Below are positions 6,510 to 28,595 of a stretch of DNA of 29,693 nucleotides, piece after piece. Position 1 is the first letter of the stretch, and each line of letters opens with the position of its first letter. Source of the DNA: a virus; IMG/VR virus record IMGVR_UViG_3300009132_000021, positions 1-29,693 of that record; one strand, given 5' to 3'. The notes under the pieces are model-generated. The model was not told where the DNA came from and did no database searches. It worked only from the letters and a program-made list of their open reading frames with translations. A program made the position numbers and the translations under genes.

Positions 6510-8279
6510 TTAACCACCGATTTCTGAAAAAGCTACATCTGAACGAGCGGCAATAAAGTTCAACTGGATAAAGTTGATTGATCGTGTCGGTTTGATGAAT
6601 ATATCTCCAACAAACTGATTGGCGTCAACTATTTGGCCAGGATTATTTGAACTATCACAAACTACTTTAAAGTCTGTAACACCCCTTCGCCCCTGTACTT
6701 CTCTCAAGAATGGAGCAATTAAATTAACAAACTGAGAACGTGTAAACTCATCATTGAATTCAAATAACATTGACTTAGCAACGATTGAGATTGCCTTCTC
6801 AAGAATAATAAACAATCTTCGTACATTAATTCGATCAAATGCACTCGGAACTGTTTGCATAGTTTTATCACCAAAGAGAACTACACCACTACCTCTTTGA
6901 GTAATAATCGGATTAACTGAAATCTGATAGAGAACATCTCGGTCTGCCTTTGTCGGCTCCCAAGAAAGTTTAATGATATTCTTAATCGTTCCTCTAGTCA
7001 GACCAGCAGGACTCCACCATGTATCATGCGTGAAATCTGTTCTTGCACATAAACCACCAATATCACCGTTCATTGGAATATAACGGAAAACATCATTATA
7101 CTGATCGTACTGATACTTATATGCACTATCCATGATAGCATAACTTGAAGAACCCAAAAATGTATTATCAGTTGTCAAAGCAGCAACTTGACCAGTTCCA
7201 GCATTAACAACAGATGACAAGTTTGGAGAAACACAAGCAACACAATCTTTTCTTGCATCTGCAATATTGTCTATAATGTATTTACCAACTGTAGTATTAC
7301 CTTCACCAGACATGACGATATTGAAATCGACAACTTGTGGTTCACGATACAATGCATAAGCAGCATTCAGTTCAGCATCAGTCAGTCTATCTGTCTGAGC
7401 ACTTGTCGTTCCACCAGCAAGTCTACCACCTGGCATTGTTTCAATTAATGTTGCACTATCGAATGATTTAAAAGAACTTGTTTTGTCAGAACCAGCATCT
7501 GCACCAGCTGCAACTGAATTATTTGTTAGTTCTGTTACATCACCCATCCAAACATATTCTGATTCTCTATTCAAAACTTCGTAAACGTAGTTTGAAGAAC
7601 CATCAATACGTTTAGCGTCAGACGCCTTACTTACGAAAGCGTGTCGTTCAAGAACTTCGCCCGCAACACCTGACATAGCACCACCAGCATCTATAACTAC
7701 AACGTGCATTTCGTCATTACTACCACCAGCGGTATTCGCACTAGTAGATGTACCTGGCGCACGATCAAAGTTATTGATGAAATATGCTTCTTCCGTAGTT
7801 CTATTACTAGCATCTTTTGCCGCAGCAACTCCCCAACCATGTGAGTCGATTGCATGGACTTTTAAACTGTTACCCAAAATACTTGGATATTTTGCAACAA
7901 ACAACTGATCTGTAAAAGAACTTTGTACAACATCATAGCTGTGTGTTGTTCCTTCTGAATTGTCTACTCTGATAGGTGTACCAGCATCATTGTCTCCAAC
8001 AACAGCGTTACGTGCTGTTGATAAAACATTTCTTACAACAATCAAGTTGTTAGAATATGCAAGATAATTAGCAGCACTAAAAAAGGATCGTGCTGTATCA
8101 TCATTCGGTTCACCAAAAACTCTTACTAAATCTTCTTCTCTTGTTATTCCTGTTCTTTCCATTACTGGGCCCCATTGAAAGGCACCAGCGATTGCACCAA
8201 TACTGGTTGCAACATTGGGAACAACGGTAGTTAAATCAGTTTCCGTGATATTAACCCCTGGCGATACTTGAAATGGCAT
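6510..8279 (-). CDS. gp18: Contractile tail sheath protein gp18
   Basis: This is a T4-type tail sheath subunit, a helical contractile cover of the tail. The start MPFQVSPGVNITETDLTTVV is the classical sheath N-terminus. The C-terminal region shows the conserved block DVLYQISVNPI...GSGVVLFGDKTMQ, followed by INVRRLFIILEKAI and SRSINFIQLNFIAARSDVAF-like sequence at the end. Its 589 residues are slightly shorter than T4 gp18 (659), and the variable middle domains (about 170-300) are probably the reduced part. AAGGAG precedes the ATG. The gap to gp17 holds TATAAAAA at 8314-8307, one base off the late consensus, 28 bases upstream. Confidence 0.96.
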   Translation of the reverse strand: MPFQVSPGVNITETDLTTVVPNVATSIGAIAGAFQWGPVMERTGITREEDLVRVFGEPNDDTARSFFSAANYLAYSNNLIVVRNVLSTARNAVVGDNDAGTPIRVDNSEGTTHSYDVVQSSFTDQLFVAKYPSILGNSLKVHAIDSHGWGVAAAKDASNRTTEEAYFINNFDRAPGTSTSANTAGGSNDEMHVVVIDAGGAMSGVAGEVLERHAFVSKASDAKRIDGSSNYVYEVLNRESEYVWMGDVTELTNNSVAAGADAGSDKTSSFKSFDSATLIETMPGGRLAGGTTSAQTDRLTDAELNAAYALYREPQVVDFNIVMSGEGNTTVGKYIIDNIADARKDCVACVSPNLSSVVNAGTGQVAALTTDNTFLGSSSYAIMDSAYKYQYDQYNDVFRYIPMNGDIGGLCARTDFTHDTWWSPAGLTRGTIKNIIKLSWEPTKADRDVLYQISVNPIITQRGSGVVLFGDKTMQTVPSAFDRINVRRLFIILEKAISIVAKSMLFEFNDEFTRSQFVNLIAPFLREVQGRRGVTDFKVVCDSSNNPGQIVDANQFVGDIFIKPTRSINFIQLNFIAARSDVAFSEIGG

Positions 8280-8354
8280 TTGATTCTCCTTTACAATTAA
8301 TTACATTTTTTATATTAATATATCGTCAACAAAAATAAATAATATAATTTTTTC

Positions 8355-9974
8355 CTAAGAAACTGTTTCCCATACTGTCCCATCCGAATCCACTTCAAAT
8401 CTATCCTGATTTATACCATTATTAATAATTCCAAAAGGCGTTGTCATATCTTCCAACTGGTTTAGTTGGTTTTTATATAAATTATCTCTAATATTTTGAT
8501 TACTCAAATCTTTAAAGTATTGTTGATCTACTAACCACGCAAATAAAACTAACGTAATTACCAAATCATCATTTGTTCCATCTTCGCCCGAATAGGTTTC
8601 ACCGACAGAAATAAATGTTGTTAGTTCTGATATAATATCGTAGTCGTTGAATAAAAGTTTATTTTCTTCTATAAGTGATTTTAAATTTGAACAACCTATT
8701 TTCTTCATAGATTTGGTTGTTCTTACACCGAAACAAGAATCCTTTTTAGCGCCGCTAGATACTTGCTGTCCGTGTCTCCCATACCATGAAGTTGAATACA
8801 AATGTTCATATTCGAGATCATGGTGAAGCACGTCAGCAACTTGTGAACCAATGTCGTTAATTTCTACCAAAATATACGCATAATTATATCTCTTTCCTAC
8901 TGTATTTATAATATTGGGAAAGTGTAGGGGTGCTACCATGTTATCACGATATTTTGCGACTATTTTGTACGGAATTTCGGTAATATCGAACACCGAAAAG
9001 GCAGAATAGTCGTTTCCTTGCCCCCTTGCCACGTCAACTGTGATATTATATGTATGATCCTCTTTCGGTTCTTCAAAAACATCCAGACCTTCTCTTGAGA
9101 AAATTGGGTCATTGAAAGACATTTCCTGTAATCTTTCAGTTGAGATCAGCGTATTTGTAGAACCTAAGAACTCCGCTTCGTACTCTTGCCTAAAAGAATC
9201 CGCACCGATTGTCGATACAGTTCTCTTATACCATTCATCATCACGGCCAGGAACATTTGACCAATGAACTTTGAATGGGAAAAATGTATTATTTCCAGAT
9301 TCAGCATCATTCCAAAACTTGTAAAACAAGTTAAATCCATTTGGAGTCGATACTATAATAACCTTTGTATCTTTACCAGATGAAATTGTCGGATAAACAG
9401 AACGAATAAATTCGTTTGCAATATGTCTTTGAACATGGGCAAACTCATCAAGTAAGATACAGGAAAAAGAAAATCCACGAATAGCACTTGATGATGTGGA
9501 AGAAGCAATAACTTTACTTCCATTCTCAAGTTCTAATGAACCCTTATTCCATTCTCGTAAACCTTGTTGTAAAAACTTGGGAAGATGTTGGTAGGATGTT
9601 TGAAGTCTACTTAATAATTCTCTTGCAGTAATTGCTTTATTCGCAAGAATACCTACAATCTTTTCTTGATTAAAAAGAATGTAATGTAACAACCAACCAA
9701 TAGTAGTTGTTGACTTACCTACCTGTCTCCCTGATTTTACAATAACATTTCTATTTTCAGTTATCGTTTCAACTAATTCTCTTTGAAATTTATACATCTT
9801 AAAAGGTATTAAACCTTTATCAACATGAACAACCTGTACATAGTTTTCCAAAAAGTAAACAACATCATCTTTACATTTGATGTATTCCGCTACTTCTTTT
9901 TTAGTAAACTTATGCGGTACGTTCAAACCTTTTAAAAGGTTATTACCTAAATAAGAATTATCGTCTTTTGGCAT
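8355..9974 (-). CDS. gp17: Terminase large subunit gp17
   Basis: This is the DNA-packaging motor and headful nuclease. The N-terminal ATPase shows Walker A SGRQVGKST (81-89), Walker B CILLDEFA (172-179, catalytic Glu177) and a coupling motif VIIVSTPNG (205-213). The C-terminal RNase-H-like nuclease shows Asp314 in ITVDVARG, Glu371 in LVEIND and Asp469/470 in TNDDLVITLVLFAW, matching the Asp-Glu-Asp triad of T4 gp17. Its 539 residues are shorter than T4's 610. The ATG starts one base after the gp16 stop, with only a weak AAGAAG upstream, suggesting coupled translation. Confidence 0.97.
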   Translation of the reverse strand: MPKDDNSYLGNNLLKGLNVPHKFTKKEVAEYIKCKDDVVYFLENYVQVVHVDKGLIPFKMYKFQRELVETITENRNVIVKSGRQVGKSTTTIGWLLHYILFNQEKIVGILANKAITARELLSRLQTSYQHLPKFLQQGLREWNKGSLELENGSKVIASSTSSSAIRGFSFSCILLDEFAHVQRHIANEFIRSVYPTISSGKDTKVIIVSTPNGFNLFYKFWNDAESGNNTFFPFKVHWSNVPGRDDEWYKRTVSTIGADSFRQEYEAEFLGSTNTLISTERLQEMSFNDPIFSREGLDVFEEPKEDHTYNITVDVARGQGNDYSAFSVFDITEIPYKIVAKYRDNMVAPLHFPNIINTVGKRYNYAYILVEINDIGSQVADVLHHDLEYEHLYSTSWYGRHGQQVSSGAKKDSCFGVRTTKSMKKIGCSNLKSLIEENKLLFNDYDIISELTTFISVGETYSGEDGTNDDLVITLVLFAWLVDQQYFKDLSNQNIRDNLYKNQLNQLEDMTTPFGIINNGINQDRFEVDSDGTVWETVS

Positions 9975-19268: not shown

Positions 19269-20153
19269 TTAGATACCATGTAATTGAAAATCAATAGTTG
19301 TGTTCGCTGTCGAAACAGCATTGGTTAAACTTACACTTGTTCCATTATTAGCTGTAAAATCTTGTCCATTAATTAATTTAATACCATTCATATATACAAA
19401 AATATTATCAACAATATAATTAATATTAAATGTCTGTTCTCCTACATTCGGAGTAATAGAACTTAAAGTAACTGATGGTTTAAAGGATAATGTTCCAGCA
19501 CCATCAGTTGTCATAATATGATTCTGTGTACCATCAACAATATCAAGTTCGGGAATACCAATTTTATTAGATTCTATTTCTAATGATTCACAAGGCCCTG
19601 ATAAATCTTGTCCACCAGCAATATTTATAAAAATTAAATTTCCAGCACCATCTGTGCCTGGAAATTGTTGTATACCATTTGTATACTGAGTTGTCTTATC
19701 TAATTCAGGTGTGCCTATAGTATTAGGATCAATGTCTGCATTATCAATCGTACCTGAAAGATCACTGCCCCAGTTTGCAGAAATCATTGCTGTTGATATT
19801 TTTAAATCAGTAAATTCTGTTGTAGCAATTTTAGTTGAACTATCACCTTGACCAGTAGTTACACCAGTTACACTTGTGGTTAATGCTACATCCATATAAC
19901 CATTAATATTAATATTACCTACACCCATAATATCATGGTTGTTTACATCTAAGTCATCACCAAGTTGTGGCGACTTGTCATCATGGATTGTACTAAGGAA
20001 TCCGTCAAAATCTGCTTTCTTCTCATTAATAGATTCAACCAAAGAAGATTTAATCGTAGTGTTTAAATTATCTAATTCCCCATGATCTATGGGTATTAGA
20101 TTAGTCTTTTCAATCCAAAGTTTTAAATTATCTTTTTTAGTTACTGTTATCAT
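19269..20153 (-). CDS. Tail fibre protein, coupled to the radical SAM gene
   Basis: A 294-residue fibre. The N-terminal module (about 1-60) ends with TIKSSLVESINEKK, and SPQLGDDLDVNNHDIMGVGN follows at about 61-80. The middle has STKIATTEF and two copies of a repeat ending TDGAGxLxF (about 168-173 and 217-222). The C-terminal domain (about 245-294, IFVYMNGIKLINGQDFTANN onward) is the shared knob. It is a paralogue of the fibre at 25069-25944. The ATG lies 17 bases inside the end of the radical SAM gene, with GAGGA upstream, so it is translationally coupled to that enzyme. It has a single Cys (in GPCESLE). Confidence 0.85.
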   Translation of the reverse strand: MITVTKKDNLKLWIEKTNLIPIDHGELDNLNTTIKSSLVESINEKKADFDGFLSTIHDDKSPQLGDDLDVNNHDIMGVGNININGYMDVALTTSVTGVTTGQGDSSTKIATTEFTDLKISTAMISANWGSDLSGTIDNADIDPNTIGTPELDKTTQYTNGIQQFPGTDGAGNLIFINIAGGQDLSGPCESLEIESNKIGIPELDIVDGTQNHIMTTDGAGTLSFKPSVTLSSITPNVGEQTFNINYIVDNIFVYMNGIKLINGQDFTANNGTSVSLTNAVSTANTTIDFQLHGI

Positions 20154-21534
20154 GTACCGCTTCCTCTATACCAAATATATTTATTCTATCTTCTGGTGTT
20201 TCCGTTTCACCTTCAATTCTATAAAGAAGTTTGGCATCTCCCATATGTGCTGTTATTTGATATAGAGCAGCAGTCAACCAAACAACATTATCACTAAAAG
20301 CATTATTACAAGATATATCCCATAACTCTGAATCGGGTTCAAGAAACAAACATGATCCTTGACAAAGTTGCAATACTGGACAATTAGAACAATCTTTTCT
20401 ATCAGACCAATGTGTTCCAGCATTAATTTTAAGTTTATCTAAACCTTCATCACCATTATCAAGACTACCAATGTTATGACTTATCCCCGCTGTATTAGAT
20501 GATGATGCTGTAACATTTTGACAAGTTGTAATAGTTCCGTTTAAATCAACTGAAAGGGTATCAGGACTATCCATACCACATTTTTGATTTAATGCTTCAG
20601 CGGGTCTTTGTGATTGCAAAGTTTGAATGAAGTTTTCTGTTTTCTGTGAAAGTATATTAAACCTAGATACTTTCTGATTGGTAATTTCATAAATTGATTT
20701 TTTTCTATATTCAATATGTTCTTCGGGTGTACTCCAAGAATTATTTTTTCCACCTTCATCATATGCATCAACAGTACCACCCTCACCTATCGGAAGAATA
20801 CCAACTTTATTTTCAAACCATTTTGCAATATCACCACGACTCTCATTATATTTGTGAACCATACTATTAAAAGATATATGACCTAGAGGTGCTAATTTGT
20901 TTTTCAATTTTTGAATCATCTTAGCTTTTTCAGGATCATCAAATGGGTCTGGCCCTCTAGTTGGTTGTCCTGGCCCATCATGCGAAATAGATATACGAAC
21001 ATCATGTTTCTCAATAAAATCAATTATCTCATCTGTAAACAACGATCCATTTGTTATAATACTATAAGTAGATTTTGGATATTTCTCATGTAGTTGTTCG
21101 ACTAAAGGTTTTAGAGTTTTCCAATAAAGGAAAGGTTCTCCACCCCATAATTCAAAATGTGGTTCGTCTTGAATTGATATGTTGTCAAACTTCTTAACAT
21201 ATGCTTCTACTTCATCATCTCCAATATGATACATATCGGATGTGTCCAAATGATCGTCTTTATTTCTTGGTACAAATCGTTGTGAACAATAATCACAAGA
21301 ATAATTACACTTTAAACCTAAACTTATTTTTATCTTTTTTAAATTTCTTTTACCAGCAGACATTCCCCAACTATCTTGTTTACTCCAATCCATAAAATTA
21401 GTTTGTGGTATAACAATATCACCATTGGATTGACGTAGTTCAGAAGTCATATTATCATAAGTCATATAAAATTCATCATTATTATTTTCATCAGCGTTTC
21501 TTACACTTGACATATAAAATTTAAATTTAGCCAT
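20137..21534 (-). CDS. Radical SAM/SPASM-domain peptide- or protein-modifying enzyme
   Basis: A 465-residue enzyme. The radical SAM core has CNYSCDYC at 76-83 (C76, C80, C83 for the 4Fe-4S cluster), ELWGGEP at 128-134 (SAM-binding GGEP), SIITNGSLF at 158-166 and ISISHDGP at 181-188. The C-terminal SPASM domain is complete: C319, C338 (in NGTITTC), C382-x2-C385-x5-C391-x3-C395, and C409, predicted to hold auxiliary 4Fe-4S clusters. Such enzymes modify peptides or proteins (sactisynthases, anaerobic sulfatase maturases, PqqE-like). The start is the ATG at 21534, with GAGG upstream. Its neighbours are a 2OG-oxygenase-like gene (its TGA at 21537-21539 nearly touches this start) and a fibre gene overlapping its end. 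The substrate is unknown; fibre proteins are the best guess. Confidence 0.92.
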   Translation of the reverse strand: MAKFKFYMSSVRNADENNNDEFYMTYDNMTSELRQSNGDIVIPQTNFMDWSKQDSWGMSAGKRNLKKIKISLGLKCNYSCDYCSQRFVPRNKDDHLDTSDMYHIGDDEVEAYVKKFDNISIQDEPHFELWGGEPFLYWKTLKPLVEQLHEKYPKSTYSIITNGSLFTDEIIDFIEKHDVRISISHDGPGQPTRGPDPFDDPEKAKMIQKLKNKLAPLGHISFNSMVHKYNESRGDIAKWFENKVGILPIGEGGTVDAYDEGGKNNSWSTPEEHIEYRKKSIYEITNQKVSRFNILSQKTENFIQTLQSQRPAEALNQKCGMDSPDTLSVDLNGTITTCQNVTASSSNTAGISHNIGSLDNGDEGLDKLKINAGTHWSDRKDCSNCPVLQLCQGSCLFLEPDSELWDISCNNAFSDNVVWLTAALYQITAHMGDAKLLYRIEGETETPEDRINIFGIEEAVHDNSN

Positions 21535-21536
21535 TA

Positions 21537-22388
21537 TCAACCTCGGAATGTTTTTAGAAGTTCGTTATACCCATGTGATATAATTCTAAAGTTAGTTACA
21601 ATACAAACTCTTGTTCCTTTACCCAGCCAAGGATTAGTTTCATGCCATAAATAGTTTGGATGAATTATTGTTAATCCAACTCTAGGTGTAATAGCGTAAA
21701 CCTTTTCCCAATAAGGATAAGAAATTGCTGGTCTTGGGTCTTGAAACAAAACCTGATGTGTTCCATTTCTAGGTGATTGTTCCTGACCAACTAAAACCTG
21801 ATCTTCTAATGCAACATTCTCATCACCCATCGCTAAATAGGTAACTACAACTCCATTAATGTCTTGATGATAATGTGGATAGGTTCGTGCTCCACCCAAC
21901 TCACTATCTCTTTGTACATTACCAAAACATCTCCCCTCAATAATCATATCATCTGCTTGTCTTATTCCCCATCCATAACGAATGTAATAACGAATTTGTT
22001 GACAAACAATCTGTTCATATGCTAATATAGATTCTTTTTCATTTGGAAATTCATCCATATCTTTATCATCAAAAAGATTATAATGCGTAGTAGCATAAAA
22101 TCCTTTTGATTTAGCCATATCATGGAAATCAGGTTCTTTAGTTTTAATATCTTCCATTGATAATTCTTTTGCAGTTAAGACTTTACACAAGTCTTTATTG
22201 ATTTTATCAGGAAGTGTCGAATCCATTTCCATAAATGGTGTAGTCCACTTATGATCTATGTTTGCGTGTTTATGAAAGGGATGATCGGTTTTATCTTCGG
22301 CTTCAGGTTCTAAATCTTTCCAATACTGTATGTGTTCTGGTGTTTGTTCATTATACGCTTCATACTCATTCGTTTTGAAGATTCCCAT
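21537..22388 (-). CDS. 2OG-Fe(II) oxygenase-like protein, copy 1
   Basis: A 283-residue protein from the ATG at 22388, chosen because AAGGA lies just upstream; the longer frame to 22451 begins with TTG and contains a terminator hairpin. Motifs are HYNLFDD (102-108), PHYHQDINGVVVTYL (171-185, candidate iron ligands H172/H174/D176), FQDPRPAISYPY (215-226), HPNYLWHETN (243-252, distal His) and GTRVCIVTNFRI (258-269, candidate 2OG-binding Arg260). The layout matches 2OG-FeII_Oxy_5/TIGR02466-type proteins, which are frequent in marine phages. It is paralogous to 24178-25059. It is followed almost without gap by the radical SAM gene, suggesting a joint role. Activity and substrate are not shown. 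Confidence 0.72.
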   Translation of the reverse strand: MGIFKTNEYEAYNEQTPEHIQYWKDLEPEAEDKTDHPFHKHANIDHKWTTPFMEMDSTLPDKINKDLCKVLTAKELSMEDIKTKEPDFHDMAKSKGFYATTHYNLFDDKDMDEFPNEKESILAYEQIVCQQIRYYIRYGWGIRQADDMIIEGRCFGNVQRDSELGGARTYPHYHQDINGVVVTYLAMGDENVALEDQVLVGQEQSPRNGTHQVLFQDPRPAISYPYWEKVYAITPRVGLTIIHPNYLWHETNPWLGKGTRVCIVTNFRIISHGYNELLKTFRG

Positions 22389-22412
22389 TTTAATCCTTCC
22401 ATCATATTTGTT

Positions 22413-22445
22413 AAAAATATTATGGGGGGCATAATTACCCCCCAT
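22413..22445 (-). terminator. Probable terminator between the 339-residue gene and the oxygenase/radical SAM pair
   Basis: An 8-bp stem rich in G-C pairs (22445-22438 with 22429-22422) has an 8-base loop and is followed within a few bases by five T (22417-22413). It sits in the 68-base gap between the stop at 22457 and the ATG at 22388. The T-run is short, so termination may be partial. Confidence 0.6.
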
Positions 22446-22456
22446 CTTCAAATATT

Positions 22457-23476
22457 TTATGCTACAGTATAATCAACATCAGCAAGACCAGAATAATTCC
22501 TAAATCCAATCTTTACTTTAAATGTATCACCAGCAGACATTCCCAAAGCACCGACTTTAAATGAACCAGTACCGTCTGTTATACTAACACGTTGTTTTGG
22601 TAGATAACCGCCTGTATGTTCAAGATAAACATCAGTTGCATGGTTAATCGTAGAACCATCACTATCAACCATTTTAAAGTCAACTGTTTCGTATGCATCA
22701 GCATCAATACCACCACCACCATTTGTTACTACAAATGTAGGTAATGCTTCTGTCATATGTCCAACATAATCATAACCAGTTCCACTTTCCCAACCACTTG
22801 TGGTATTTGTACTAAAACCATAAGCCTTGTTATATTTAATAGTATATGAAGCATCCATAAAAGAAGTATCAGTAAATGGTCGATAACAAAGTAAAGCACA
22901 CGGAGCTCCAGAATGTCTGGATTCTCTCAATGGATGTGATTTAGTGTTATAGGTTTTACCGATAGAATTAAAAGCGGGTTGTGTATAATGCCATCCACCT
23001 ACTTTGGCACCCATTCTGACTGGCCAAACTGAAGGTACTGTAGCAAAACCAACACCAACAGTCCAAACAGCAGCATCAGAATTTTCTGCACCCATAGAAG
23101 GATCAGTAGGATCAATCCACGAATAAGAAGCACATCTGAAATATTTACCAGCCATTTTAGCGGTATAAGTACCCTTAATATTATCAGGCATATGAACAAG
23201 AAGTTCCTCACCAGTTATTTTAGCACCATAAAGTCTTGAGGTTGGAAGTTTTGTGTGAAAAATTCCTGAATTATTACCAGGCCAGTCCATATGGTCTACG
23301 CTGGAATCTCCAACCAAACTTCTTTCAGGAGTTCTACCAATATCAGCTTCCATACTATCGCTCTCATACATTTCTTCGTCTATTTCCATCCAGTTTTTCA
23401 AACATATAAAATCATCATTGACTAACAATTCCAGATGCGTCGGCATGGAAAGACTGTCATAAGATCGTCTAAACAT
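22457..23476 (-). CDS. Putative virion/adhesin protein of unknown family
   Basis: A 339-residue protein I cannot assign. The N-terminal 70 residues are acidic (LVNDDFICLKNWMEIDEEMY onward). The centre (about 70-225) is rich in Trp, Tyr and Gly. The last 95 residues, after a VVTNGGGGIDADAYETVDF linker, look like a beta-sandwich/Ig-like domain (VYLEHTGGYLPKQRVSITDG, then DTFKVKIGFRNYSG). Location between the Cys-tailed fibre and the oxygenase/radical SAM pair suggests a virion adhesin or a partner of fibre modification. AGGAG lies 10 bases before the ATG. It is the last gene before a probable terminator. Confidence 0.7.
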   Translation of the reverse strand: MFRRSYDSLSMPTHLELLVNDDFICLKNWMEIDEEMYESDSMEADIGRTPERSLVGDSSVDHMDWPGNNSGIFHTKLPTSRLYGAKITGEELLVHMPDNIKGTYTAKMAGKYFRCASYSWIDPTDPSMGAENSDAAVWTVGVGFATVPSVWPVRMGAKVGGWHYTQPAFNSIGKTYNTKSHPLRESRHSGAPCALLCYRPFTDTSFMDASYTIKYNKAYGFSTNTTSGWESGTGYDYVGHMTEALPTFVVTNGGGGIDADAYETVDFKMVDSDGSTINHATDVYLEHTGGYLPKQRVSITDGTGSFKVGALGMSAGDTFKVKIGFRNYSGLADVDYTVA

Positions 23477-23524: not shown

Positions 23525-24109
23525 TTAACAATTACAAGCACAGGCACAGTCGCAGGCACAAGCACAAGCAGTCTGACAATTATATTCTCCTAGAAGAACA
23601 TTTGCACCTGACGTTGTATTTTGCAACCCAATTCGGCCCCCACAAGCAGTACCACCAAAGCCTGGATTTGTCGGGCCCCAAATACTAACCTGACCAGTAC
23701 CACCAGTAATCGTTCCTGTTCCACCAGCAGTAGCACAGTTAGCATGGTTTGTACAGTTTGTTACCCATGTTCCATCACCACGCAAGTAAGTTGAACTGTT
23801 TTGAGTTCCAGAACCCAAACGTGCTCGGTTGATAGTTCCCGAACTAATGTTAGCAGCATTTGTAGTATCTGTCGTAGCACTAGCTGCTAACCCACTAACT
23901 TGACCGGCAGGCAAATTAGATATACGAGCATTCGGCAACGTACCCGAACTAATATTATCAGCATTCGTAGTGTCTGTCGTAGCAGAAGCAACTAGAGAAG
24001 GTTTATTTAGAATCGTATTCCAATCACTTGCTGGAACATTATCCAAAGCACCAGATACAACATCTCCACCTGAATCTATAAGATCAGCGATTTGTCTTGC
24101 TATAGTCAT
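23525..24109 (-). CDS. Tail fibre protein with alternating-cysteine C-terminus
   Basis: A 194-residue protein. Residues 41-57 and 76-92 are two copies of ASATTDTTNAxNISSGT, then comes STYLRGDGTW (106-115), both common in marine-phage fibres. A Gly/Cys part follows (Cys119, 125, 156; CTNHANC, GGTACGG). The final 17 residues, CQTACACACDCACACNC, put cysteines at 178, 182, 184, 186, 188, 190, 192 and the very last residue 194. I know no fibre family with such an ending. It could bind metal, crosslink a trimer, or be the substrate of the radical SAM/SPASM enzyme encoded about 2 kb downstream. AAGGA precedes the ATG. Neighbours are an oxygenase-like gene upstream and the 339-residue gene downstream. 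Confidence 0.88.
   Translation of the reverse strand: MTIARQIADLIDSGGDVVSGALDNVPASDWNTILNKPSLVASATTDTTNADNISSGTLPNARISNLPAGQVSGLAASATTDTTNAANISSGTINRARLGSGTQNSSTYLRGDGTWVTNCTNHANCATAGGTGTITGGTGQVSIWGPTNPGFGGTACGGRIGLQNTTSGANVLLGEYNCQTACACACDCACACNC
23528..23578 (-). repeat. Hexanucleotide (Ala/Asp-Cys) coding repeat
   Basis: The last 17 codons of the Cys-tailed fibre contain six consecutive 6-base units of the type GCY-TGY or GAC-TGY, with two of them identical. This is a short tandem array that could gain or lose Cys pairs in frame. Confidence 0.75.
23771..23793. repeat. 23-bp exact direct repeat, copy 2 (encodes TYLRGDG)
   Basis: Identical to 16840-16862 in the 589-residue fibre gene, about 6.9 kb away, in the same orientation and reading frame. 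Confidence 0.9.
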
Positions 24110-24177: not shown

Positions 24178-25059
24178 TTATGTTTTAATCAATGGTTTAA
24201 CCAATCCATTATTATTGTATGTATTGACACGATAATTAATCACCACCGCTGCTCTTATACCTCTACCACTAAAAGTGTTAGATTCGTGCCATACATAAGC
24301 AGGATGAAATAAAGTCGTTCCAATCTTAGGAACATAATCTTTTGCCTTACTATTATACGGATAATTAATAGCAGGTCTAGGGTCTAACAGTAATAACGCA
24401 CCCTCTGTTTCATTAGGCATATCTTCCTTCTTTAAATCAAAATCAGCATAATTTGCAACCGTTCCCTTTCGTCCTTCACTATCATCATCAGATTTAAGTT
24501 CACAAATTGTCGAGCCAGGAGCTACAAGTTGTAAATCATCATCCCCATCAACGTCAGTAGTTAAAGCAAACTCACCACCAAGCGTTAAGTATGTAATCAT
24601 AACACCATCAAAAGCGTGATGGTAGTGTGGAAAGGTTCTGCGGCCAGTAGTTTGCATATTACCAAACCCCCGACACTCAATGTCTAACTGATCAGCATTT
24701 TTTACATTGTAAGCGTTTGCGACATAGTATCGTATTAATTCACTCGATATTTCTTCATAACCTTTTATGGCAGGATTGTTGTCTCTGTCATCAAAAAGAT
24801 TATAATGATTTCTTTCAAACTCTATTGTCATGGTTCTCTTATGAGTACCCATTGTCGTACAATAACCTTTAGAAGCAATATACTCTATTAAACCAACTCT
24901 CATATCTTCAGGTAAATTTAATTCTATTCTTCCTATAGGCGTAACCCACTCAGGAGTTATTTGTAGATTACCGTCTAAAGGATGACCACCAAGATACTTA
25001 TCTTGTCTTTCTAGTTCTTCTTGGGATAACCTATAACCAGTTTCCGTTTTAGTTTCCAT
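24178..25059 (-). CDS. 2OG-Fe(II) oxygenase-like protein, copy 2
   Basis: A 293-residue paralogue of 21537-22388. It shares NHYNLFDDRD (84-93), the YEEISSELIRYYVANAY helix, IECRGFGNMQ, PHYHHAFDGVMITYL (144-158), LLLDPRPAINYPY (223-235), HPAYVWHESN (252-261) and RGIRAAVVINYRV (266-278). Candidate iron ligands are the PHYH histidines and the distal His in WHES; Arg269 is the candidate 2OG contact. An acidic insertion (about 165-215) is specific to this copy. The Asp of the HxD motif in copy 1 is replaced here (HHA), though an Asp follows at 151, so the ligand set needs testing. Its ATG is 9 bases after the stop of the fibre at 25069, with AAGGT upstream. Confidence 0.7.
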   Translation of the reverse strand: METKTETGYRLSQEELERQDKYLGGHPLDGNLQITPEWVTPIGRIELNLPEDMRVGLIEYIASKGYCTTMGTHKRTMTIEFERNHYNLFDDRDNNPAIKGYEEISSELIRYYVANAYNVKNADQLDIECRGFGNMQTTGRRTFPHYHHAFDGVMITYLTLGGEFALTTDVDGDDDLQLVAPGSTICELKSDDDSEGRKGTVANYADFDLKKEDMPNETEGALLLLDPRPAINYPYNSKAKDYVPKIGTTLFHPAYVWHESNTFSGRGIRAAVVINYRVNTYNNNGLVKPLIKT

Positions 25060-26009: not shown

Positions 26010-26624
26010 TTAATTTATTTTTGGTTGATGCGTATAAAAGTGCGTAATACACCATCTACCATAACCCTTACCAACATTCTCCTGATCCATACTTACCATA
26101 TCTACCTCATGTAGATAATAACTTGGGAAGATAACCATTCTGTTGTGTTTACATTCAACTATACTATCTGATTGAGGAAACTTTAAATCCCCACCAGTAA
26201 ACCTCTTTGGTTCTCTGTAAAACCATATCAAACAAGTATGCATGAAAGTATCAAAATGAGTTTTATATTCATCTTGATTTTCATAATAACTAACTATTGA
26301 CTGATCTATGTTACACGATAACCATGTTCTCCATGAAGGAGTCGTTTTTTGATATTGTTCTACAACAGGTAATGAACAAACTCTCCCATGATGTCTTAAT
26401 ATACTTGACTTATCTCTTTGACCCCTATAAAAATAATCTAATGCAAGTCTACTTAGTATTGCTGGATTTTCTTCACTAGAACCAATAGGGATTTTATCCT
26501 TAACACAATACCTTTCAAGATAGTCTAATTCTTTCAAGATTTCTTCTTCTTGATTCCTATCATAAAAATCATCTACCATCAAGTAAGGGTAAATATTATA
26601 TTCATTATATATTTTAAATTTCAT
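26010..26624 (-). CDS. Prolyl-4-hydroxylase-type 2OG-Fe(II) oxygenase
   Basis: A 204-residue enzyme with a complete cofactor set: HFD at 123-125 (H123, D125), GGDLKFP at 144-150, distal His172 in SYYLHEV and Arg190 in GRWCITHFY. This is the P4Hc/2OG-FeII_Oxy pattern, in which 2-oxoglutarate, O2 and Fe(II) hydroxylate a protein residue, often proline, or another substrate. It starts directly at the stop of the 554-residue fibre gene (TAAATG), with AGGATAA as ribosome site, so the two are made together. Such oxygenases are frequent near fibre genes in marine T4-like phages. Proline hydroxylation of a fibre is possible, but the substrate cannot be read from the sequence. Confidence 0.88.
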   Translation of the reverse strand: MKFKIYNEYNIYPYLMVDDFYDRNQEEEILKELDYLERYCVKDKIPIGSSEENPAILSRLALDYFYRGQRDKSSILRHHGRVCSLPVVEQYQKTTPSWRTWLSCNIDQSIVSYYENQDEYKTHFDTFMHTCLIWFYREPKRFTGGDLKFPQSDSIVECKHNRMVIFPSYYLHEVDMVSMDQENVGKGYGRWCITHFYTHQPKIN

Positions 26625-28304: not shown

Positions 28305-28595
28305 TTATTTGTTCCAATAACCTTTAGGACATTTTGATTTGTTAAACAATGTTTTCGCAGGCATAAAGCAAGCACATACATTACATTGTCTTGTCAGTTT
28401 TCTAAATTCAGAACAATCTTCACATACTGCATATCGTTCCGCTTGTATATCTTTTTCTATAAAACCACTAGTTACCGCTGTTGTGATGTCTCTTAATCTA
28501 CTAATACTGTCATCACGAATTTCCTGCCATGTCATACTCTTTTCTTTTTCTGCTTGAGTACGTTGTGCTTGTCTTGCTTCAGTTCCAGTTCTCAT
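28305..28595 (-). CDS. Small Cys-rich zinc-ribbon-like protein (DUF6171-like)
   Basis: A 96-residue protein with a helical N-terminal half and a C-terminal metal-binding-like motif: C58-x2-C61, C71-x2-C74, C76 and C89, with the ending KCPKGYWNK. The order CxxC, CNVCxCFMPAK, CPKGxW matches a small Cys-rich family of phages and bacteria that I recall as DUF6171. Its function is not known; zinc binding is likely. The ATG lies 3 bases after the previous stop, with GGAG upstream. It sits between the 167-residue accessory protein and the big fibre gene. Confidence 0.78.
   Translation of the reverse strand: MRTGTEARQAQRTQAEKEKSMTWQEIRDDSISRLRDITTAVTSGFIEKDIQAERYAVCEDCSEFRKLTRQCNVCACFMPAKTLFNKSKCPKGYWNK

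Follow-up and report, generated by a model that had tools for sequence, protein, structure and literature searches.

What becomes of a phage tail fibre that ends in a run of alternating cysteines? The protein that raises this question has 194 amino acids and is encoded on the minus strand at positions 23525–24109 of the window, the whole 29,693-nucleotide stretch of DNA analysed here (IMG/VR record IMGVR_UViG_3300009132_000021). The record has a T4-like architecture, with a terminase that shares 56% identity with its counterparts in Synechococcus T4-like phages. From its N-terminus, the protein consists of fibre-type repeats (DTTNADNISSGTLPNARIS...), a distal domain with Asn-Cys dyads, and the C-terminal alternating-Cys tail. 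Searches of Pfam, PHROGs and PADLOC returned no match to it, and its classification as a phage tail fibre comes from its fibre-type body and its place in a tail-fibre cluster: the N-terminal repeats, common to fibre proteins, are also found in tail-collar and other fibre proteins (L026, L028, L030), and its neighbours match Mtd_N and fibre profiles. The C-terminal end reads ...GEYNCQTACACACDCACACNC, followed by a TAA stop. The tail itself, CQTACACACDCACACNC plus the stop (23525–23578, minus strand), has seven alternating cysteines plus one, and its CACNC ending is kept in relatives.

A first-pass annotation of the window had counted eight cysteines in the last 17 residues, with every second residue a Cys. 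The count holds, while strict alternation applies to the last seven alone (CACACDCACACNC), the first of the eight standing four residues before them. The three further cysteines it had noted in the last 80 residues are C119, C125 and C156, and two of these belong to Asn-Cys dyads of the distal domain, Asn118-Cys119 (23753–23758, minus strand) and Asn124-Cys125 (23735–23740, minus strand), recognised from the sequence and from the Asn-Cys enrichment described below. The fibre backbone is therefore not wholly “ordinary”, as it had been called, because its distal half bears the Asn-Cys signature. The tail pattern occurs once in the window and in none of 100 shuffles, and the cysteine content of the other window proteins is 0.64%. 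Mixed tail codons (TGT/TGC, GCT/GCC) rule out a DNA microsatellite or repeat artefact, and an assembly error or frameshift at the tail end is ruled out by 100% identical copies of the protein in contigs of three further metagenome assemblies (L003–L005). Elsewhere in the window, positions 28305–28595 encode a 96-residue protein with a zinc-ribbon-like CxxC/CxCxC end, whose position is conserved in L003–L006 and L018.

The possible maturase gene predicted about 2 kb downstream of the fibre is present at 20137–21540 (minus strand). Its 467-residue product, the proposed maturase, is identified as a radical SAM/SPASM enzyme by Pfam, PHROG, NCBIfam and a structural model, scoring 42.7 bits against PF04055 (cut-off 29.5) and 34.4 bits against TIGR04085 (cut-off 27), and it belongs to PHROG 1802 (E = 2.6e-62, residues 31–418 of 467). 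The enzyme carries CX3CX2C at C78/C82/C85 and a seven-Cys SPASM domain with the motif CX9-15GX4C...CX2CX5CX3C...C, and all ten cysteines are invariant in 27 of 27 sequences. A defence-type viperin was considered and rejected, as the PADLOC match to pVip reflects core-domain similarity only (56 bits). Directly downstream of the fibre lies the gene for a 339-residue protein with an Ig-like C-terminal domain (22457–23476, minus strand), and an accessory 2OG-Fe(II) oxygenase (PF13759; 21537–22451, minus strand) is encoded between this Ig-like partner and the radical SAM gene. A second 2OG-Fe(II) oxygenase-like protein, also accessory, is encoded upstream of the fibre (24178–25059, minus strand). 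In L005, a contig otherwise nearly identical, the radical SAM gene (7566–8993) is split by a stop into two open frames.

The association between tail and enzyme was examined in both directions. Going from tail to enzyme, we scanned 2.9 million viral contigs for the DNA pattern CxCACNC-stop and compared ORFs of at least 100 amino acids with shorter frames. Among the matches listed, 35 of 46 such ORFs are accompanied by a radical SAM enzyme on the same strand, 1.2–4.3 kb downstream of the tail, compared with 4 of 77 shorter frames (p = 1e-16); all four are genuine short tails, so that none of the 73 chance matches listed has an enzyme. For 10 of the 11 enzyme-less ORFs among these matches the downstream sequence is too short, and in the apparent exception, L144, a whole-record search found the enzyme elsewhere in the record. 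By comparison, the enzyme is found in none of 28 whole records with chance matches to the tail pattern. A complete scan with a second pattern, CNCNCNC-stop, gave the enzyme on the same strand for 52 of 62 ORFs of at least 70 amino acids and for 0 of 21 shorter frames (Fisher p = 2e-12), and the ten ORFs lacking it all have less than 1.5 kb of downstream sequence. Chance pattern matches can be rejected as the cause, since short-frame matches have no enzyme unless they are genuine short tails.

Going from enzyme to tail, an alignment of the enzyme was used as the query and retrieved 80 viral and 79 genome loci. Cys tails lie on the same strand in 64 of the viral and 52 of the genome loci (opposite strand: 2 and 1), and in 2 of 58 control fibre loci. 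Where a viral locus offers enough sequence, the tail is found in 44 of 46 cases, or 45 of 46 counting L283, whose contig starts within a Cys tail (RTYLYNYNCNCNCACTCK-stop). Homologues that keep the enzyme and lack the tail, which the first-pass annotation had held to speak against its reading, thus amount to one of 46 informative viral loci; L288 is a viral locus of this kind. Among the genome loci, a tail accompanies 28 of 29 closer enzyme relatives versus 14 of 29 more distant ones. Bacterial records with both enzyme and tail come from Limnohabitans, Burkholderia paludis, Polynucleobacter, Thalassovita, Magnetospirillum and Rhodospirillaceae, and are presumably prophages. On one bacterial contig (L307, 6735–7778, prophage), a tailless fibre with Asn-Cys dyads sits next to an intact radical SAM gene and is possibly decayed or frameshifted. 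Enzyme relatives also occur in Bacteriovorax-type and a few other genomes (L355–L362), the Bacteriovorax ones with no Cys tail nearby.

Of 151 non-redundant tails, 146 are encoded upstream of the enzyme and 102 end exactly on Cys. Their bodies fall into 14 single-linkage similarity clusters, some of the smallest of which may be noise, and include collagen, CBM5/12, shufflon-type and fibre-repeat domains. The survey of homologues for Cys-X endings that had been suggested thus finds the same ending on unrelated fibre bodies, with the enzyme downstream almost always. Plain synteny of the marine T4-like fibre cluster was rejected as a full explanation, since prophages and unrelated bodies show the link as well.

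The tails also share a composition. Between tail cysteines, the intervening residues are Asn (63%), Ala (19%) and Asp (10%), together about 91%, and Gly and Ser together account for 3 of 576. The preference for Asn extends beyond the tail: in the 150 residues before it, Asn precedes 396 of 515 cysteines (77%). None of the 89 cysteines in the proximal regions of these fibres follows Asn, and the share is 2.6% for other ORFs of the same loci, 4.4% for control loci and 3.8% for the remaining window proteins. Such an enrichment points to an event specific to the Asn-Cys sequence rather than to a passive cluster of thiols, and the near-absence of Gly and Ser would be expected if a side-chain carbon were needed.

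The first-pass suggestion of enzymatic maturation by the nearby radical SAM protein is strongly supported by this two-way co-occurrence across unrelated fibres and phages. From the linkage and the Asn-Cys signature, we consider it very probable that the co-encoded radical SAM/SPASM enzyme acts on the Cys tail and the dyads, though adjacency could also reflect a joint role of enzyme and fibre that involves no modification. The explanation we favour as a whole is that the enzyme modifies the tail and dyads, likely by thioether formation, to give a stabilised tip; judged from sequence and fold comparison, we put its probability at roughly 0.55.

Thioether formation in particular stands at about even odds, and is the best guess because the substrate is Cys-rich, the enzyme has a CteB-like fold and its site is predicted to be open. 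The enzyme model (pLDDT 88) has its best fold matches in CteB, anSME, TigE and ChlB, of which the top match, the thioether-forming maturase CteB, is moderate (TM about 0.53). Auxiliary cluster I of CteB has an open site for the substrate thiolate. In the phage enzyme the equivalent of anSME Cys261 is missing, and three protein cysteines alone are predicted for auxiliary cluster I, which should therefore keep an open site; as in CteB and the thioether maturases, the segment that in anSME completes this cluster lacks a fourth protein Cys. With CteB, SCIFF, PapB and CcpM, the phage system shares the radical SAM and SPASM architecture and an adjoining gene for a Cys-rich substrate. It differs from them in its putative substrate, a phage tail fibre bearing (N/A/D)-Cys repeats at its C-terminus where theirs is a small peptide with a leader; no leader, exporter or protease/peptidase gene was recognised beside the fibre. 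The enzyme reaches the cut-off of none of the NCBIfam maturases listed, among them the thioether maturase equivalogs PapB (70.3 of 340 bits), CcpM (70.1 of 500) and SCIFF (38.3 of 425), PapB and CcpM ranking first. With scores so far under the maturase cut-offs and a moderate TM, the chemistry cannot be read off from these matches, and we know of no precedent for a thioether between directly adjacent residues.

Other radical SAM systems resemble this one in part. HxsB/HxsC and CefB (His-Xaa-Ser and Cys-every-fifth substrates) likewise have a radical SAM maturase dedicated to a periodic tail, but the period and residues differ and the scores, 51 of 370 bits and 41 of 600, fall far short of the cut-offs. 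QhpD and anSME, to which the enzyme has weak sequence similarity (TIGR03906, TIGR03942), modify a larger protein outside RiPP logic. Their targets are enzymes, whereas the candidate target here is presumably part of the virion; the fibre has no CxAxR motif, and the score against anSME is 61 of the 349 required. In anSMEcpe, Asp277, next after Cys276, is catalytic and acts as a general base. The corresponding position after the second SPASM Cys is an invariant Gln (Q341, 27 of 27 sequences), which disfavours formylglycine chemistry.

Formylglycine is one of several non-thioether products that the same substrate might carry, the others being epimerisation before Cys (giving alternating D/L residues), desaturation, or a carbon-nitrogen or carbon-carbon link. 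A product of this class is rather unlikely in our estimate, but it accords with the sub-threshold scores against every thioether-maturase model and with the range of fold and sequence matches, which takes in anSME, TigE, ChlB and the epimerase EpeE/YydG. The alternation of Asn, Ala and Asp with another residue also recalls proteusin epimerase substrates. Against epimerisation, such enzymes need no Cys beside the modified site, whereas Cys is the invariant residue here, and Gly, which is favoured in D-like conformations, is absent.

It is improbable that the tail passively binds metal or an iron-sulfur cluster at the axis of the trimer, with the enzyme acting on something else or helping in metal loading. 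CxC is a metal-binding motif, and in a beta-strand the alternating residues would all face the axis, making the tail a sulfur version of T4 gp37, in which HxH iron sites occupy the distal part of the trimeric fibre; HxH iron-site fibres have also been proposed for marine phages (PMC11705849). With its alternating side chains in a distal trimeric fibre, gp37 is the nearest structural analogy. In the window fibre, unlike gp37, the alternating residues are Cys rather than His, stand at the extreme C-terminus and are linked with an enzyme, and no HxH motif, single or repeated, occurs in its 194 residues. The spacers typical of metallothioneins (Gly, Ser, Lys, Thr) are almost absent, and those found instead (Asn, Ala and Asp, 91%) are poor strand formers. 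A metal site would also leave the near-perfect linkage to one enzyme family unexplained, and isolated cysteines obey the Asn-Cys rule too. The plain metal loading listed in the first-pass annotation has therefore lost ground, the spacers being nearly only Asn, Ala and Asp and Asn also preceding non-tail Cys.

Disulfide locking of the tip between chains after lysis, also listed there, would form spontaneously outside the cell and would make the radical SAM gene a mere neighbour, as radical SAM cassettes have been noted as variable parts of the pelagimyophage host-recognition cluster, with cysteine unmentioned (PMC7029224); it is very improbable, as it does not require the Asn-Cys rule and leaves the enzyme's presence, and a two-way linkage across unrelated phages, fibres and prophages, unexplained. 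Equally remote is the idea that the Cys-tailed proteins are RiPP-like phage precursors rather than virion parts, for example directed against competitors: some are 76–99 residues long and arranged in tandem, as multi-precursor arrays are (L273, L341), but most bodies are of fibre or binding type (collagen, CBM, shufflon/gp36-like, fibre repeats), the ones examined are encoded within clusters of tail-fibre genes, and neither leader nor exporter was recognised.

In the favoured reading, enzyme-made thioethers in the tail and dyads, the enzyme would bond the sulfur of each Cys to a carbon atom in a neighbouring residue, the kind of bond known from sactipeptides and ranthipeptides, and the bonds could lie within a single chain or bridge the three chains of the trimer. 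This would make the tip, which is probably where the fibre meets the host, compact and resistant to reduction. That the modification serves to give a stapled, stabilised tip in host contact is proposed only tentatively. The Ig-like protein would probably be a partner or chaperone of this tip. Its model (pLDDT 81) places the Ig-like domain at the C-terminus; a fold search found Ig-like domains only and no full-length match, and Pfam, PHROGs and PADLOC gave no match. A profile of the partner matches in 164 of 252 enzyme loci, often over the Ig-like domain alone, and the gene usually lies between the tail gene and the enzyme gene; the 13 loci with the partner profile and no enzyme are pieces of Cys-tail records.

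A further component is seen in the Achromobacter phages JWF and 2-1, whose enzymes belong to the same PHROG 1802 (about 40% identity) and likewise have a Cys tail two genes upstream. Unlike the window fibre, theirs has a Hint-type domain (CFPAGTMVLMADG...) directly after the tail, as in several bacterial records, and no Ig-like partner was detected in JWF. Residues 308–344 of the JWF fibre, the product of gene PJWF_00028, match PF05203 with 47.5 bits (cut-off 32.1). Such a domain may cut itself off, leaving the tail at the C-terminus. In these two cultured phages, the fibre with the Hint autoprocessing domain (L200, 6787–8238; L201, 6796–8238) precedes the radical SAM gene by two genes; the JWF tail is NCNCDCNCNCSC, and the JWF radical SAM gene is annotated as a sulfatase maturase. 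In L209 (392–1294, minus strand), the tail YNCNCNCNCS is followed by a different C-terminal domain of about 170 residues (KIICTKLFSLGMMKQ...) that has no Pfam match. Somewhat short of even odds, we propose a widespread phage system in which a dedicated enzyme family recognises Asn-Cys (or Ala-Cys, Asp-Cys) dyads in both the distal domain and the C-terminal tail of unrelated fibres and links each Cys to a neighbouring residue or chain, so that the trimer tip would be covalently knitted, with an Ig-like partner taking part and a Hint domain releasing the finished end in certain lineages.

The bacterial host of a phage is determined at the tips of its tail fibres, and our results suggest that many unrelated phages chemically rebuild their host-binding tips, apparently by an undescribed modification. 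Radical SAM/SPASM enzymes are known to mature Cys-rich substrates; as far as we can tell, none has been described as acting on a phage tail fibre under an Asn-Cys rule. The link was undescribed in the papers we found on radical SAM enzymes with tail fibres, RiPPs or prophages and on Hint domains with tail fibres, which is weak evidence given that few subscription journals were covered. If true for many marine and other phages and prophages, virions would carry covalent chemistry that receptor-binding models built on sequence or of the AlphaFold type leave out, such fibres could come out wrong when produced in a laboratory strain lacking the maturase, and a new radical SAM family with a short Asn-Cys recognition rule would be usable for peptide stapling. 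Because two cultured phages carry the system, the question is testable now.

The cassette varies among relatives of the window fibre. Homologues L006–L023 keep the N-terminal part and vary in the middle, and all have the CACNC ending. In almost all contigs of sufficient length, one to four tandem Cys-tailed copies are followed by a relative of the 339-residue protein, between one and five 2OG-Fe(II) oxygenases, and the radical SAM gene. Around the cassette, the marine relatives examined have one to five oxygenase genes, which might hydroxylate Asn or Asp of the fibres; the fibre cluster of the window has three (21537–22451, 24178–25059 and 26010–26624). Radical SAM and 2OG-Fe(II) oxygenase genes also lie close together in the jumbo phages FLC6 and RSF1 (PMC8066314). 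Arrays of two to four tandem Cys-tailed paralogues with differing middles, some just 76–99 residues long, occur in L010, L112/L155, L273–L275 and L341, and could provide hetero-trimeric tips or exchangeable adhesins.
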